Of a stretch of DNA of 38,563 nucleotides, positions 4,853-24,086 are shown in pieces. Every line of letters begins with the position of its first letter. Position 1 is the stretch's first letter. The notes under the pieces were generated by a model, which made no database searches, was not told the DNA's origin, and saw only the letters and a program-made list of their open reading frames with translations. Both the position numbers and the translations under genes were made by a program. Origin of the DNA: an uncultured Clostridia bacterium (GTDB lineage: Bacteria; Bacillota; Clostridia; Christensenellales; CAG-314); assembly GCA_947625185.1 (NCBI GenBank), contig CANQNJ010000013.1, positions 1-38,563 of the forward strand, written 5' to 3'.

Positions 4853-7288
4853 ATGAAAACAAAGAGAACGATTGCAATGCTGTTGGTAGTTGCAATGCTG
4901 TTTGCGTTTGTATCGGTGATCGCGGCTTGCGAAAAGAAGCCTGCGCCGACGTCAATCACCGTCGATCCGAGTTCGGTATCGGTGGAAGTCGGCAAGTCGT
5001 CAGCCAAGCCCACGCTTAAATTTCAACCGAGCGACGCAGATCAATCCGTCACCTGGACGTCGGCAGATACTTCCGTTGCCACGGTCAACGACCAAGGAGT
5101 CGTCACGGGCGTCAAGGCAGGCGAAACCACTGTCACAGTCAAGTCCAAAAAAGCAGAATCCGTCCAAGCGACGGTAACGGTCAAGGTAACGGCGCAGTCA
5201 TCGGACATCAAGCCCACTGCCATAACGGTAAGCCCCTCCAACGTAACGTTGGATATCGGAGCCAAGTCGTCCAAGCCTACGCTTACGTTCCAACCGAGCG
5301 ACGCCGTGCAGAGCGTCACCTGGACGTCGGCAACTCCCGCCGTTGCAACGGTAGATGACGACGGCGTTATCACGGCGGTTTCCGCGGGGACGACTACCGT
5401 AACGGCAACAAGCACGGTTGCAAGCACCGTCAAGGCGGAGATCTCCGTCACGGTAAATGCGGCACAGGATAAAAACAAGGGCTTGACGCAAGACAATCCT
5501 CTCACCCCCGACGAAGCAATCGCTCTTATGGAAGAAGCGGGCAGCGGCGTAGTCGTAAACGCTTCCAATAAAGACGGGTATTATGTGCAAGGCGTTGTAA
5601 ACACAGACTCTACGATAAACAACTATAAAGAATGGTCGTTTACGCTCGGCACAGGAGAAAAGAAAGTAACCTGCCAAGCCAAGGTGGACGCGTCCGTTAC
5701 GGACAAGCCGGAGGAGAAAAACGGCGCTCTTGACGGAGCAACAGTAATAATACACGGCTTCCTGGAATTGTATCAAGGCGCATACAAAATTGCGTATCTT
5801 CCCGCAAGCGTAAGCCCCACGGGAGACAAATATACCCCCAACCTTGTAAAAGTAGAGTTTGCCCCCATTCCTCCTGCGGAAGTGGAATCGGTAAAATTAA
5901 GCACAACCGGAACGCGATATCTTCTTCCGATTGAGGGCAATTCTATTTATGTTACGGCGACGGTAGAACCGTCCAATGCTCCGCAAGATATTGTCTGGAC
6001 GGTGGAAAACGGCGATAAGGCAACCGTTACGACGGTAGACGGAACAAGCGAAACAACCGCAAGCGCAAGCGTAAAGTACAAGGATCAGGCGGGTTCGATC
6101 ACCCTTACCGCAACCGCAAAAGGCACCGATATTTCCGCTTCCGTTACGGTCGAGATCAGAGACGTCAAAGGCTCCAAACAAGAGGATCCCTTGACGGTAG
6201 ATGAGGCAATAAGTTTGATGTCGGCGTCGGAAGGCGAGTATTTACAAGCCGACGCGAGTCACGGATTTTATATTCTCGGAACGGTTGCCGCGGGTTCGAC
6301 GGTAAGTGCCAGCGGTACTTGGACATTTGCCCTTGTAGGCAGCAATAATAAGAAGATAGAATGTTCTGTCGAACATAACAAACTCAATGATATAGTAATA
6401 CCTGATATGAACGGCGGTTTGGATAACTGCGAGGTTATTCTTTATGCGCACAGCATTGCGTTTGTTGATGAAACATTTACGGCAAGAGGCAACATGAACG
6501 AATTGAAGAGTTGTACATTCCCCTCGCTGGAATCTATTGTTATCGAGGCGGAAAATACCGAGGTCGTCGTTCCGTATTCTGTTGAAATAAAAGTCAAGAG
6601 TGTAGCCCCTGCCAACGCGATATTCGATGACGTAGTGTGGACATCGTCTGACCAAAACAAAGCCACCGTGGAAGGGGACAAGACGGGAGCAACGCTTACC
6701 GCTGTCGCCGCAGGCGAGGTAAAAGTGTCGGTAAAATGCGGCGATGTCACGTCCAACGAAGTTACGATTACCGTTAGCGAAGAGCAACAGGCAATCAAAG
6801 CCGTTTATGATTGGACGGATAAGTTTACGGCGGACACGGTTTGTAATAACTCATATTATCATTACAATTTACCCAACGACACCGATATACTTGACTCTTA
6901 CATCAATGTTTGGACTCCGGGTCAAACCGAGATAACCGAATTTAAGACAATCAATGCTTTTGAAGCGGGAGAAGAGGGCAAAGGAATTGGTTACTTTGCT
7001 CATCCGAGACGAGACAATTCTTGCACAATAAGCATAACAACGCAACATCAGATAAGTAAACTTACGCTGAAACTTATTCCGTACAGCGATGCGACAACCA
7101 TACAATTTTCTGTTAACAGTCAACCGTATCAAAAAGACAAAACGGACAGTGATAATTGGGACGGTAAGATAGAAAGTGCATTTGAAGTATCTTTCGATTT
7201 TGCCGAAGCCACACAAAACATTGAATTGCTGACAGTATGGACAACGGGTAACAACTTTGCAATAGTCGGAATGACGTTTTATTATTGA
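4853..7288 (+). CDS. Big2/OB-domain surface lipoprotein
   Basis: 811-residue exported lipoprotein: signal peptide 1-25 with lipobox VIAAC (Cys26). Two Ig-like Big2 domains follow (about 32-117 and 118-200; VTWTSADTSVATV and VTWTSATPAVATV are their typical strands). Next is an OB-like module (about 205-345, starting LTQDNPLTPDEAIALM), an Ig-like segment, a second OB-like module (about 440-575, QEDPLTVDEAISLM), a third Big2 domain, and a C-terminal beta-rich domain (650-811) that may bind carbohydrate. Strong AGGAGG 6 nt before ATG 4853. Role: cell-surface adhesion or substrate binding, inferred from domains. No catalytic motif seen. First of several such genes to 16.8 kb. Confidence 0.85.
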   Translation: MKTKRTIAMLLVVAMLFAFVSVIAACEKKPAPTSITVDPSSVSVEVGKSSAKPTLKFQPSDADQSVTWTSADTSVATVNDQGVVTGVKAGETTVTVKSKKAESVQATVTVKVTAQSSDIKPTAITVSPSNVTLDIGAKSSKPTLTFQPSDAVQSVTWTSATPAVATVDDDGVITAVSAGTTTVTATSTVASTVKAEISVTVNAAQDKNKGLTQDNPLTPDEAIALMEEAGSGVVVNASNKDGYYVQGVVNTDSTINNYKEWSFTLGTGEKKVTCQAKVDASVTDKPEEKNGALDGATVIIHGFLELYQGAYKIAYLPASVSPTGDKYTPNLVKVEFAPIPPAEVESVKLSTTGTRYLLPIEGNSIYVTATVEPSNAPQDIVWTVENGDKATVTTVDGTSETTASASVKYKDQAGSITLTATAKGTDISASVTVEIRDVKGSKQEDPLTVDEAISLMSASEGEYLQADASHGFYILGTVAAGSTVSASGTWTFALVGSNNKKIECSVEHNKLNDIVIPDMNGGLDNCEVILYAHSIAFVDETFTARGNMNELKSCTFPSLESIVIEAENTEVVVPYSVEIKVKSVAPANAIFDDVVWTSSDQNKATVEGDKTGATLTAVAAGEVKVSVKCGDVTSNEVTITVSEEQQAIKAVYDWTDKFTADTVCNNSYYHYNLPNDTDILDSYINVWTPGQTEITEFKTINAFEAGEEGKGIGYFAHPRRDNSCTISITTQHQISKLTLKLIPYSDATTIQFSVNSQPYQKDKTDSDNWDGKIESAFEVSFDFAEATQNIELLTVWTTGNNFAIVGMTFYY

Positions 7289-7320
7289 GAGTACAATCAT
7301 CATACAATTAAGTCGAAAAT

Positions 7321-7351
7321 GGGTCGAAAGTGTATTTCGACCCTTTATTTT
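7321..7351 (+). terminator. Rho-independent terminator after the Big2/OB lipoprotein
   Basis: GGGTCGAAA/TTTCGACCC perfect stem with 5-nt loop followed by TTTATTTT, 32 nt after the stop at 7288. Confidence 0.92.
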
Positions 7352-7450
7352 GCGCTGAAAATGTTATATTTGAAAAATTTTTTCAACTTTTTTTGAATTT
7401 TGCTTAAAAAATGCGTGGGTCGAAAGGTATTATCAGTAGAAAAGGAAAAA

Positions 7451-7473
7451 AGGAGGACGGACCGATGCAATAA
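7451..7473 (+). promoter_or_regulatory. Leader motif with a two-codon ORF (ATG-CAA-TAA)
   Basis: AGGAGGACGGACCGATG at 7451-7467 is identical to a block at 27467-27483. It places a consensus AGGAGG 8 nt before an ATG followed by one codon and a stop (Met-Gln-stop). It lies 71 nt upstream of the gene at 7544, which has its own AAGGAG site. The exact identity in two unrelated leaders suggests a regulatory role; mechanism unknown. Confidence 0.6.
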
Positions 7474-7543
7474 TTTACCGAGAAACCACCCAACCAACAA
7501 AAATTTATAAAATACGAGGTCAAATCCTCAAAGGAGAAAAACG

Positions 7544-9805
7544 ATGAAAAAATTATTTACTTTGTTAACTCTGCTTGTCGTTGCAGTGATGACGCTTAAT
7601 TTTGCAAGCGTTGCCGCAGCAGCAAGCGTGCCTATGCAGGATGAACCCGACTACTCGATCGCACAGATCAAGGAGGCAGGCGAAACTTATACCGTGCGCG
7701 GTCGCGTTGTCGCCGAAAATACCCGAAGCGTTATTATTACCGACGGAACGACCAACGTTATGATCTACGGAAACGGTATTGCGGACGCGGTGGATATCAA
7801 TGATTACATTCAGATCTCAGCCGCCGCAAGCGTTTATAACAATATTTTACAACTCAATTACAACAGCGAGTCTCCCGTGGAGAAGATAACCCCCGCCGAG
7901 ACGCCCGACGAGACCCCCGTAACGGCATTGTCGCCGGATAAAGCCAAGGAGTGGCAGACCAAGGCGGCGGCAGGAACGCTTGCTCTCGGAGACGTACAGC
8001 GTTACTCCTGGCAGGCAACAGCGACGAGAGTGGGCAGCTATTGGGCATTGACTCCCGCCGACTACGATATCGATTTCCAAATCGAACCGCTTTATGTCAA
8101 TACGGGCGTTTTCAATTTGCAAGCAGGCGTTAATTATAACGTTACGGCGTATTTTACGGGGTTCAACAACACATCATCCACGCCTTTTGCCGGAGTGATG
8201 ATTCAGACACTGTCCCCTGTTGCGGGACAACTGCAAATACGCGTTGCCAAAGAGTATATAGCCGTAAATGATTTAACATTATCTGTAAATTTAGGTGTGA
8301 CGATAGAAAATGCGTCGACAACCGATGCTTATACGGTTAGCTCATCTGACGAAACCATAGCTAAATGGAACGAAAAGAGCGAAGAAGTGGATATTCTTGA
8401 TGTCGGAACCGTTACCATAACGGTTACGTCTGTTGAGGATACTGCCAAATCAGTAAATGTGGTTTTGGTTATTTATGAGTCGGAAGTAAGCAGAATTGCA
8501 AATATAGCTAATGCAGGTACTTATTTAATACGCGGTACCGTTGTCGCCAAGACCACAAGCTCGGCAATTATCGCGGACGCAAGCGGCGGTATTATGGTAT
8601 ATGACGTCAAGCAAGTTTCCGGTCTGAATGTAGACGATTATGTAAGCGTTGCTGGCACGGTTTCGGAGTACAACGGACTGTGGCAGTTCTCCTACAATCC
8701 CGGCGTTGTCGTAGAGAAGGTAAGCGGCACCGCCTATAAGCCCACAGCAACGCCCCTCACCGAGAGTCTGTTGAGCGGTTGGGTGAGCGCTCGCACACAA
8801 GCCGACGTCAAACTGTACGCCTGGACGGCGGTCGCAAGTCAGCGCAACGGGTTCAATGTTTACAGCCTGACTTATGACGGAGTAGTTGTCGAGTCGGAAG
8901 TGGCTCTTGCGGATATTGTCCTCGGCACGACATACAATCTCGAAGGGTACTTTGCGGGTTACAGCACAAGCAACCAATATGCGTCGTTTGTGATAACCAA
9001 GTGCGAAGCCGCACCCGAAGCGGATCAGATACCGTATCTCGGCTTTAACCGCGACAGCATCAATCTCGGTATCGGCAGCACTTATGAATTGAGTCCCATT
9101 GTCGGTGGCGGTATAGCGTTGGCAGACGTCCATTACGAGATCGGCGGTACCGACCCGAGCGCTATCAGCATAACCGACGGCGTCGTCAAGGGCGAAAAGG
9201 CAGGCTCGGCGACGATCACCGCAACGGCGGGCGGTATAAGCAGAGATATCGCCGTCACAGTAAGCACCGCAATCAGCCAAGTTACGGAAAACAACCAATT
9301 CTACACCGTGATAGGCAAGGTGGTGGCAAAGACAACGCAATCGCTCGTTATCCACGACGGAACCGCAGGCATACTCGTATATGACAGAGACGCCGTAGCC
9401 GAGTACGCGCTCGACGACGTGATACAGGTATCCGGATATGTATCGACGTTCAACAATATGTTGCAATTCTCCTACAACAACAGCTTGTCTACGTCCAAGG
9501 TGGACCAGACGATAACCGTCCCCGCCGCAACGACGTTGACCGTAGCTATCGCAGACGAATGGCCGACGCTGACAAGCCCGATATCCGTAACGAGATGCCG
9601 CGAATACACCTGGACGACAACCGTCGGACAGGACGGCAATTTCCTCACTATCAACGTCTCGGGCAGCGACGTTAAGATCGAACCCGCGTATCTGCCGAGC
9701 AACTTCACTCTCGAAGCGGGCAAGACGTATACCGTCAAGGGATACTTTATCGGTTATTCGACGAATAACAACTATGCGGCTATCGCAATAACCGCCGTGG
9801 GTTGA
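7544..9805 (+). CDS. Secreted protein with three OB-like repeats and Ig-like domains
   Basis: 753 residues with a signal peptide (about 1-27, cleavage near SVAAAAS) and no lipobox. Three repeated pairs of modules: an OB-like unit (YTVRGRVVAENTRSVIITDG; YLIRGTVVAKTTSSAIIADA; YTVIGKVVAKTTQSLVIHDG), each followed by a second beta unit ending in YFTGF, YFAGY or YFIGY. Ig-like spacers lie between pairs (about 245-315 and 500-570). The repeats suggest a scaffold or ligand-binding surface protein rather than an enzyme. ATG 7544 has AAAGGAG 7 nt upstream. The C-terminus shows no LPXTG or membrane anchor, so it is probably released or held non-covalently. A long leader carries the two-codon ORF motif. 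Confidence 0.82.
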   Translation: MKKLFTLLTLLVVAVMTLNFASVAAAASVPMQDEPDYSIAQIKEAGETYTVRGRVVAENTRSVIITDGTTNVMIYGNGIADAVDINDYIQISAAASVYNNILQLNYNSESPVEKITPAETPDETPVTALSPDKAKEWQTKAAAGTLALGDVQRYSWQATATRVGSYWALTPADYDIDFQIEPLYVNTGVFNLQAGVNYNVTAYFTGFNNTSSTPFAGVMIQTLSPVAGQLQIRVAKEYIAVNDLTLSVNLGVTIENASTTDAYTVSSSDETIAKWNEKSEEVDILDVGTVTITVTSVEDTAKSVNVVLVIYESEVSRIANIANAGTYLIRGTVVAKTTSSAIIADASGGIMVYDVKQVSGLNVDDYVSVAGTVSEYNGLWQFSYNPGVVVEKVSGTAYKPTATPLTESLLSGWVSARTQADVKLYAWTAVASQRNGFNVYSLTYDGVVVESEVALADIVLGTTYNLEGYFAGYSTSNQYASFVITKCEAAPEADQIPYLGFNRDSINLGIGSTYELSPIVGGGIALADVHYEIGGTDPSAISITDGVVKGEKAGSATITATAGGISRDIAVTVSTAISQVTENNQFYTVIGKVVAKTTQSLVIHDGTAGILVYDRDAVAEYALDDVIQVSGYVSTFNNMLQFSYNNSLSTSKVDQTITVPAATTLTVAIADEWPTLTSPISVTRCREYTWTTTVGQDGNFLTINVSGSDVKIEPAYLPSNFTLEAGKTYTVKGYFIGYSTNNNYAAIAITAVG

Positions 9806-22745: not shown

Positions 22746-22822
22746 GTTCTCGTACCTCAGTAGGATAGAGGATCCGCCTCCTAAGCGGACTGCCGCGCGT
22801 TCGAATCGCGCCGGGAACGCCA
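22746..22822 (+). tRNA. tRNA-Arg (anticodon CCT)
   Basis: Acceptor GTTCTCG/CGGGAAC, D stem CCTC/GAGG, anticodon stem TCCGC/GCGGA with loop CTCCTAA (anticodon CCT, reads AGG), T arm GCGCG-TTCGAAT-CGCGC, and an encoded CCA. 77 nt. Its last 17 nt (from TCGCGC) recur at 22999 and 23192, at a period of 193 bp. Confidence 0.95.
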
Positions 22823-23216
22823 TTTCGGGCGGCTGCGCTATGCGTCGCAACAGGAAAAGGGCTCACGCAAGGTGTGCCCTTTTTCCATTGCTCCCGTTTG
22901 CTTGCCGCCCTTGTCTCTTGCCCCGTTGCGGCAACGAAATATGTAGCACTCCGTTTGCTTTGCTCACTGCGTTTACCCTGCGCTTTGCTCGGGACGAATC
23001 GCGCCGGGAACGCCATTTCGGGCGGCTGCGCTGTGCGTCGCAACAGGAAAAGGGCTCACGCAAGGTGCGCCCTTTTTCCATTGCTCCCGTTTGCTTGCCG
23101 CCCTATGCTCTTGCTCCGTTGCGACAACGAAATAAGTAGCACTCCGTTTGCTTTGCTCACTGCGTTTACCCTGCGCTTTGCTTGGGACGAATCGCGCTGG
23201 GAACGCCAAAACGGAC
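22806..23216 (+). repeat. 193-bp tandem units carrying the 3' end of tRNA-Arg
   Basis: Units start at 22806 (inside the tRNA), 22999 and 23192, exactly 193 bp apart; two full units and a stub. Each begins with the tRNA's T-arm/acceptor 3' half and CCA. A terminator hairpin follows (GGAAAAGGGC/GCCCTTTTTCC, at 22853-22886 and 23046-23079), then a conserved block ACGAAATATGTAGCACTCCG that leads into GGGACGA at the next tRNA end. ORFs across it are shadows. Confidence 0.9.
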
Positions 23217-23861
23217 GAACTTTCGCATATATATTGCAAAGAAAATTGGCACAACAAATTGTGTCCATTTTCTTTGTGGTCGCGGTCACGGACTCGTCTC
23301 CGCAGAGCGGAGTGAGCACATTGGGCGTTAAGCCAATCTGCACGGTGTGCAGTTGGTAGCCAATTGCACAAGGGCGCGGCTCTTGTGCAGCAAATTCCAT
23401 ATGCCCGCCCGCAGTGATAGAAAGCAAAGAATACTCAATCGCAACAACACGGCAAATGGAACAAACACGAAGTGACTGGACTCGTCCCGAGCGTAGCGAG
23501 GGTAAGTGGAGCAACACGGGGTGTTGCGGAACGCTACATATTTCGAACTGACCAGTCACGTAGACCTCAGCAGGCACGCCCCAAAGAAGCGACGAAAAAA
23601 GGGACACAAAGACGTCTTGTCTCATTTTTGCAATAAGCGTGAACGAAGAAGAGTCGAAGTGACGGACTCGTCTCCCACGCAGTGGGAGTAAACGGAGCAA
23701 TGTTCAACATTGCAGAGTGCTACATCATTTCGTTTTCCGGTCACTGAGACCACGTTGCGGCGCACCTATAAGAAGCACAAGAAAAAAGAGGGGCGTTTGC
23801 TCCTCTCTTTCTTGTGCGACCCAAAAGGAAGCCGCAACTATGGTCGAAGTGACTGGACTCG
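23217..23861 (-). repeat. About 190-bp tandem units carrying the 3' end of tRNA-Pro
   Basis: Reading the minus strand away from tRNA-Pro, CGAGTCC...CACTTCG copies start at 23861 (the tRNA itself), 23670, 23484 and 23296: periods 191, 186 and 188 bp. Each unit has the tRNA 3' end, then a different terminator-like hairpin, then a block CGAAAT-x-ATGTAGC, then two hairpins whose stems differ between units, then GACGAGTCC. The last unit meets the tRNA-Arg array near 23,216. Confidence 0.88.
23775..23817 (-). terminator. Terminator of tRNA-Pro
   Basis: GCACAAGAAAAAAGAGGGG pairs with CTCCTCTCTTTCTTGTGC around GCGTTTG, with T-rich flanks on the minus strand; about 25 nt after the tRNA CCA. Confidence 0.7.
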
Positions 23862-23916
23862 AACCAGCGGCCTCTTGGTCCCGAACCAAGCGCGCTACCA
23901 ACTGCGCTACACCTCG
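23841..23916 (-). tRNA. tRNA-Pro (anticodon CGG)
   Basis: Minus strand, 76 nt: acceptor CGAGGTG/CACTTCG (one G-T pair), D arm with AGTTGGTAGC, anticodon stem CTTGG/CCAAG with loop TTCGGGA (anticodon CGG, reads CCG), T arm CTGG-TTCGAGT-CCAG, encoded CCA at 23843-23841. The nearest good promoter (24087-24115) lies beyond a damaged copy of its own 5' end. Confidence 0.95.
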
Positions 23917-23954: not shown

Positions 23955-24075
23955 ATAGCAGTTGGTAGCGCCCAAGGCGCTTCCGCACTGCGAGCATAGC
24001 TCTTGTGGGCTTTGGCTACCAACTCCACACTGTGGAGGTTGGCTTAACGCGTCGCCCCAACTGCGCTACACCTCG
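23955..24075 (-). pseudogene. Partial tRNA-Pro 5' copy interrupted by a hairpin element
   Basis: On the minus strand CGAGGTGTAGCGCAGTTGG repeats the first 19 nt of tRNA-Pro, 159 bp upstream of the intact gene. A palindromic insert (CCAAC...GTTGG with CCAC/GTGG core) follows, and then AGTTGGTAGC resumes the D arm, so AGTTGG flanks the insert as a direct repeat. After that the copy degenerates. Confidence 0.75.
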
Positions 24076-24086
24076 ATTGCTATATT

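Follow-up and report, generated by a model that had tools for sequence, protein, structure and literature searches.

Small non-coding modules at tRNA gene 3' ends in an order of Clostridia carry antisense arms that covary with the tRNA tail

Results

Repeat units downstream of tRNA-Arg and tRNA-Pro

What occupies the interval between two convergent tRNA genes when the 3' end of each gene recurs several times downstream of it? In the window, the whole 38,563-nucleotide stretch of clostridial DNA that was analysed (contig CANQNJ010000013.1), tRNA-Arg(CCT), with CCA encoded, lies at 22746–22822 on the forward strand and tRNA-Pro(CGG) at 23841–23916 on the reverse strand, ARAGORN and Rfam agreeing on both. 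Downstream of each stand units of about 190 bp, every one closing with the 3' tail of that tRNA from C56 of the T loop. The Arg tails start at 22802 in the gene itself (C56–A76, 22802–22822) and again at 22995 and 23188, a spacing of 193 bp that was recovered independently by TRF (95% matches). Those of tRNA-Pro start at 23861 in the gene (running down to 23841), 23670, 23484 and 23296, with spacings of 191, 186 and 188 bp. The original prediction for this locus, made from the letters alone, had reported these spacings and the T-loop boundary, and sequence comparison bore both out; its Arg positions (22806, 22999 and 23192) mark the right segment but fall four bases inside the C56 start.

Arg unit 1 opens with H1, a long hairpin conserved across units (22823–22910), whose inner stem GAAAAGGGC..GCCCTTTTTC is terminator-like. 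An antitail follows, recognized by complementarity comparison as an imperfect reverse complement of the tRNA-Arg tail (22918–22937, boundaries approximate), and then a core and the tail copy at 22995–23015; antitail, core and tail copy together (22915–23015) are matched by the covariance model R1 with E = 3.5e-19. Arg unit 2 (23016–23208) has the same H1, antitail, core and tail copy (23188–23208), as judged by an R1 match at 23108–23208 and the 193-bp period. On the reverse strand, Pro unit 1 (23651–23840; R1 match 23651–23751) contains H1, antitail, core and a tail copy from 23670 that has one base deleted and has lost CCA, and Pro unit 2 (23464–23650; R1 match 23464–23566) contains a core and a tail copy from 23484. 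E values for these four matches are 1e-18 to 1e-21, as returned by a model trained in part on the same window copies that it scores.

The final Pro tail copies are degenerate. Pro unit 3 (reverse strand, 23276–23463, or 23297–23483 as the unit behind the tail copy at 23296), which was delimited from the sequence, is degenerate as a whole, carries a nested TTGGCTACCAACTGCACACC..GATTGGCTTAACGCC module and ends in a degenerate tail from 23296, beyond which an H1-like stem lies at about 23230–23290. The fourth Pro copy had been predicted with the right spacing, but R1 gives no match to this unit because its tail is degenerate and a nested repeat lies inside it. The block that had been noticed in both arrays is real and extends over the whole unit; the antitail and the terminator hairpin, both present in every unit, had not been part of that prediction.

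Unit layout and core types

Comparison of the 3' flanks of 26 tRNAs of the 1.73-Mb MAG revealed the same layout behind 11 of them: Val CAC, Val GAC, Gln, Ser GGA, Ser CGA, Arg CCG, Arg CCT, Pro CGG, Pro GGG, Ile and Glu CTC. The order is H1, antitail, conserved core and tail copy (C56..CCA), where H1 is a long hairpin that follows CCA directly and has a terminator-like A/T-rich stem, and the antitail is an imperfect reverse complement of the tail of the unit's own tRNA. No unit has an ORF of its own; these are modules without any gene. Tandem copies within an array are often near-identical.

Cores of type A read YGAAATNATGTAGCGYTCC..CGCTYACYC-hairpin-GRGA. The tail copy is preceded by GGGA or GAGA at the place where the tRNA gene has GGTT, and the hairpin before the tail has a mean stem of 4.1 bp over 64 distinct sequences, compared with 2.1 bp for shuffled letters. 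Type B cores, first seen through weak matches in other genera, read YGAAATNAYGTGACGYTC..CGCTATTCCGTCRC..GYTCCTTAC and lie behind a tRNA, a terminator and a matching antitail; they terminate in CTTAC, which adjoins the tail copy. Behind tRNA-Glu a third, shorter layout was found, consisting of a terminator, degenerate antisense and a tail from C56 (L169, L170, L177). A module of about 170 bp, GACCCGCAAAAGTTGAGT..GGGAGAGCGGCGACG, stands between antitail and GTAGCG in five loci (L164, L167, L165, L002, L083); since it keeps one fixed core position at several tRNAs and in several genomes, the cores themselves carry a nested insert.

Distribution across genomes and tRNA genes

All of the genomes compared are MAGs. 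R1 finds 17 copies in the window genome, and 21 of the 24 other genus members examined have copies as well; type A is absent from three genus genomes. The original prediction had proposed looking for the module at other tRNA genes, and it is present behind many of them in this genome and its relatives; nor did it turn out to lie remote from tRNAs, which would have counted against that prediction. Among the fetched loci, a same-strand upstream tRNA was found for 93 of 122 genus cores, representing 20 tRNA species, and 63 cores start 85–100 nt behind the tRNA. Over 18 nt, the tail is identical to the upstream tRNA in 60 of these 93 and has at most two mismatches in 77, several of the larger mismatch counts being one-base deletions. 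For the other 29 cores the locus contains no tRNA, because they are found at contig ends or have been displaced by prophages or islands; 22 of them fit a known tRNA tail with at most 2 mismatches in 18. The arrays may explain many of the contig ends at tRNA genes in these MAGs.

For type B, the model R2 matches 60 of 297 genomes of the order, in 21 of 125 genera, and gave no match in genomes of other orders among 341 sampled in the class. In the 16 distant loci that were fetched and have an ARAGORN tRNA call, type B lies behind Leu, Ser, Val, Arg and Thr tRNAs, either as a single unit or in arrays whose period is about 132–330 bp. A pattern scan of 85,462 species genomes returned only Clostridia MAGs, mostly with 'Lapin' sample names, together with a record under the title Clostridiales and another under 'Corallococcus', which the whole-genome search assigned to the same genus. 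Rfam, including RtT (RF00391), gave no match at the gathering threshold or at E <= 1, and no earlier description of the modules was found in the literature searched, which takes in a minority of subscription journals. As far as searched, then, the family is new relative to Rfam and that literature.

Complementarity of antitail and tail

Antitail and tail covary strongly. In type A, complementarity over positions 60–69 averages 7.06 with the unit's own tail and 5.69 ± 0.09 with permuted tails, and the base opposite R57 follows the tail (G57-C 50 and A57-T 25, against A57-C 11 and G57-T 6). In type B, a model-fitted alignment gave a covariation score of 0.360, compared with 0.130 ± 0.013 for shuffles, and both partners had changed in 75 cells, compared with 26.6 ± 5.0. 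Neither value was reached in any of 500 shuffles, and sliding the partner abolishes the signal. An anchored test that involves no model fitting gave 7.07 against 5.69 ± 0.17 (z 7.9) for type B, or 7.03 against 5.64 ± 0.20 with one unit per tail. R57 itself is not followed in type B (A57-C 14, G57-C 8, A57-T 7). Kinship among sequences inflates covariation and permutation tests of this kind; its effect is limited here, because the two core types agree and the one-per-tail result holds.

Strong population-level permutations stand against a weak strict ranking of single units, the own tail being strictly best in 26 of 102; many individual antitails are decayed, and their own tail is not their best match. 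Gapped local alignment was dropped as a measure of complementarity, being uninformative because tails share CRANTCC, and was replaced by the per-unit ranking, the permutations and the anchored tests. Among strongly paired type A cases, a subset selected on positions 60–68, positions 70–72 are paired in 10–13% (chance 25%) and position 73 in 71%, which speaks for a defined hairpin with an interruption rather than for a copy in simple decay. Within 70–72 of type B, only position 72 is similarly depleted (11%). A reading of the antitail as a retroviral primer-binding site was set aside, the pairing avoiding 70–72. In three chimeric units (L128, L129, L150) the antitail fits the upstream tRNA and not the downstream copy, so that either the upstream gene or the downstream copy may be its partner in vivo.

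Empty and filled sites and alike units at different tRNA genes

The orthologous tRNA-fMet is empty in genomes G000 and G008 and filled in G004, G005 and G011, with identical boundaries. At the empty site CCA is followed by TT(C/T)GTAGTCTCAACTGAACCG.., that is, by the terminator TTYGTAGTCTCAACTGAACCG.. directly after CCA; at the filled site one complete unit with its tail stands between the same CCA and the same terminator. Upstream flanks match in G000, G004 and G005. The pair supports that part of the original prediction, an element inserting at T loops, which concerns precise insertion leaving the tRNA 3' end intact; the integrase it implied found no such backing, since neither of two candidate families of enzymes co-occurs with the units (see below). 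The tail copy may be rebuilt by the module, as had been suggested, or may be a duplication of the target. Taken alone, the fMet pair would fit precise loss as well as gain. The native-looking terminator is itself repeated in some type B arrays, and the duplicated stretch may thus exceed the tail.

Units at different tRNAs can be alike outside both tail and antitail while these two are exchanged. Similarity in the remainder is 82% between G008 Ser(TGA) and G018 Val, 81% between G018 Val and G000 Val(CAC), and 84% between G014 Ser(CGA) and G003 Ser(TGA). The Ser(GGA), Ser(TGA) and Ser(CGA) units of G012 are 91–93% alike, and their antitails have been re-matched only partly. On a tree of 101 units, built without tails and antitails from a short alignment (157 columns) that leaves many branches open, tRNA identity changes 56 times, compared with 80.2 ± 2.1 for shuffled labels and a minimum of 19; units therefore cluster by tRNA, yet have switched often. 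Two separate, well-supported subfamilies occupy fMet sites, and two subfamilies are mixed within one array at Arg(CCT) of G004 and at Ser(TGA) of G012, a mixture that tandem duplication alone would not be expected to give.

Recombinases and larger elements at the occupied tRNA genes

The units neither encode nor adjoin a recombinase of their own, and the larger recombinase-bearing elements that lie between a tRNA and a unit have their own junctions. The Y1 transposase is absent from the unit-bearing genomes G008, G014, G023 and G024 and is not correlated with the units, and a group of tyrosine recombinases of about 310 amino acids is absent from unit-bearing G002, G017, G013, G009, G070, G178 and G261. 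The window genome encodes seven Phage_integrase proteins and has four copies of the 310-residue group, two of which adjoin prepilin-like genes. On G000 contigs C9 and C21 (L182, L184), related recombinases of about 310 amino acids lie beside prepilin-like genes, possibly as a DNA-inversion system for pilins.

Stretches of 4–11 kb between a tRNA and a tail copy were considered as gene cassettes of the system and rejected: they are ordinary integrative elements with junctions of their own that displaced an existing unit. At tRNA-Met in L173 stands an inovirus-like prophage that carries integrase, Zot-like and Rep genes; its own attR follows, and then an intact unit. Serine-recombinase elements occupy the tRNA in L162 and L166, a CD-NTase-type island in L163 and RM genes in L160. 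Large serine-recombinase elements at the acceptor end of tRNA-Ser or tRNA-Val push units downstream in L162, L166/L005, L090 and L097. At tRNA-Ser(CGA) in L160, positions 5011–8988 between two near-identical units hold two D12-type adenine methyltransferases and an HNH nuclease, and no recombinase.

Discussion

Sequence comparison establishes that the modules are specific to tRNA 3' ends, that their boundary is fixed at C56, that one site exists both empty and filled, that alike modules occur at different tRNAs, that some arrays mix subfamilies and that antitail and tail covary. How they come to be there can be put less firmly. We give about even chances to an order-wide family of small non-coding modules (about 110–200 bp) that insert at tRNA 3' ends by site-specific recombination, with an attC-like fold. 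A module would enter exactly at the 3' end of the tRNA gene, giving in order the tRNA with C56..CCA, a hairpin (H1/T1), antitail, core, a tail copy C56..CCA and the original downstream terminator, a layout that leaves the tRNA gene with its 3' end complete and with a terminator. The insertion step would be site-specific recombination on a folded single-stranded form, in which antitail and tail pair as an interrupted hairpin (56–57 paired, a bulge, 60–69 paired, 70–72 unpaired, 73 paired) topped by a branched core. Such a site would resemble an integron attC, the tRNA tail being the target, and the enzyme is assumed to act in trans. The likeness to attC is structural only; it is drawn from shape, and part of it was seen on pairs that had been chosen for being well matched.

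The main rival to insertion modules is a function at the level of RNA, which as a whole we judge rather unlikely. Here the read-through antitail, core and tail would fold as a second tRNA-like 3' end controlling termination, 3' processing or decay, and the unit would be inherited with its tRNA, unequal crossing-over accounting for its amplification and ordinary recombination for its exchange; it would then be a tRNA-specific 3' regulatory element across many isoacceptors. A terminator-like hairpin right behind CCA in every unit suits such a role, as do pairing kept in two core types, as selection on RNA would do, the above-chance clustering of tRNA identity on the tree (56 against 80 changes) and the near-identity of many tandem copies. 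Precise empty sites fit insertion better, however, and so do independent subfamilies at one site and alike modules at unrelated tRNAs; type A is also wholly lacking from three genomes of the genus, and single-sequence folds are often no better than shuffles (z −0.5 to −5.2).

Two further explanations are improbable to a similar degree. The units might be decayed attR remnants of ordinary prophages or islands that use the tRNA T arm as attB, a reading already weakened: although tyrosine-integrase sites typically have such a boundary in the T loop and real elements do occupy these tRNAs (L173, L162, L166, L160, L163), those elements leave their own junctions and only push an intact unit downstream, an H1 and core common to units of 20 tRNA species would not be expected of unrelated phages, and one exact core pattern had no match in viral contigs. 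Mobilization as IS200/IS605-like or other transposase-dependent MITEs, with the antitail as base-pairing guide, would account for hairpin-rich, non-coding units with a target-complementary stretch and for CTTAC at the end of the type B core, beside the copy. It is difficult to reconcile with the lack of a Y1 transposase in unit-bearing G008, G014, G023 and G024, and duplication of 21 bp of target is, to our knowledge, not a feature of IS200/605 elements.

Under insertion by recombination, the modules may constitute a new class of non-coding mobile DNA for which tRNA genes serve as a platform in the manner of an integron, with a foldable site whose sense and antisense arms match the tail of the host tRNA and are re-matched at each new tRNA, a proposal that we make tentatively. 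As far as Rfam and the searchable literature show, no known family carries antisense tailored to each host tRNA. It is on this per-target antisense that the kind could be regarded as new; if it is attC-like, it could fairly be called a variant of cassette recombination. Were the modules mobile, tRNA genes would be cassette platforms with target-matched foldable sites, and acquisition of a new antitail would imply a new mechanism of copying or selection.

Comparison with known systems

The tandem 178-bp repeats at E. coli tyrT (rtT RNA, RF00391) also lie downstream of a tRNA gene and include its 3' end. They had been offered as a partial precedent for the window arrays, and the layouts are indeed alike, but no RtT covariance match was obtained even at E <= 1. 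The tyrT repeats concern one tRNA in enterobacteria, whereas the modules occur at 20 and more tRNA species within one order of Clostridia, and we know of no antitail described for tyrT.

Like integron cassettes, the modules form head-to-tail arrays in one orientation on a fixed platform. In contrast to cassettes, the platform is a tRNA gene, the arms match that tRNA and the unit has no ORF; no IntI is known for the modules, for which recombination is suggested by shape. attC sites are poorly conserved in sequence but share an imperfect hairpin that is conserved, with a spacer that does not pair, bases that are extra-helical and a branched tip that varies (PMC2727003). The modules fold into a hairpin of this kind, with paired boxes and each of these traits, which makes them attC-shaped as a structural analogy only; the R'/R'' heptamer consensus (RYYYAAC/GTTRRRY) is not apparent in alignments A1 and A3 of the modules.

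With tRNA-targeting prophages, islands and tycheposons the modules share a site at the tRNA 3' end and the duplication of that end. Such integrative elements are kilobases long and encode or borrow a tRNA-specific integrase, unlike the gene-free modules of 110–200 bp, in which one core family serves 20 and more tRNA species. REP, BIME and MITE repeats are likewise small, non-coding, palindromic and multi-copy; they differ from the modules, which lie only at tRNA 3' ends and have a per-target antisense and a 21-nt tail copy.

Further repeats beside tRNA sequences

Upstream of tRNA-Pro in the window, at 23955–24077, a partial copy of the tRNA-Pro 5' end (CGAGGTGTAGCGCAGTTGG) lies beside a hairpin module, TTGGCTACCAACT..GTTGGCTTAACG. 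Pro unit 3 is interrupted by this hairpin module too, as are units in L020 and L165. Partial copies of the tRNA 5' half were found upstream of 3 of 51 tRNAs by script. In L009 (after tRNA-Thr(CGT)), L010 (after tRNA-Gly(CCC)), L171 and L172, a further repeat, CTCAGCCGAG..GAACGCC, is fused to pieces of tRNA that either stop at the T loop or belong to the 5' half, as though an element of another kind were also breaking up tRNA sequence at set positions.
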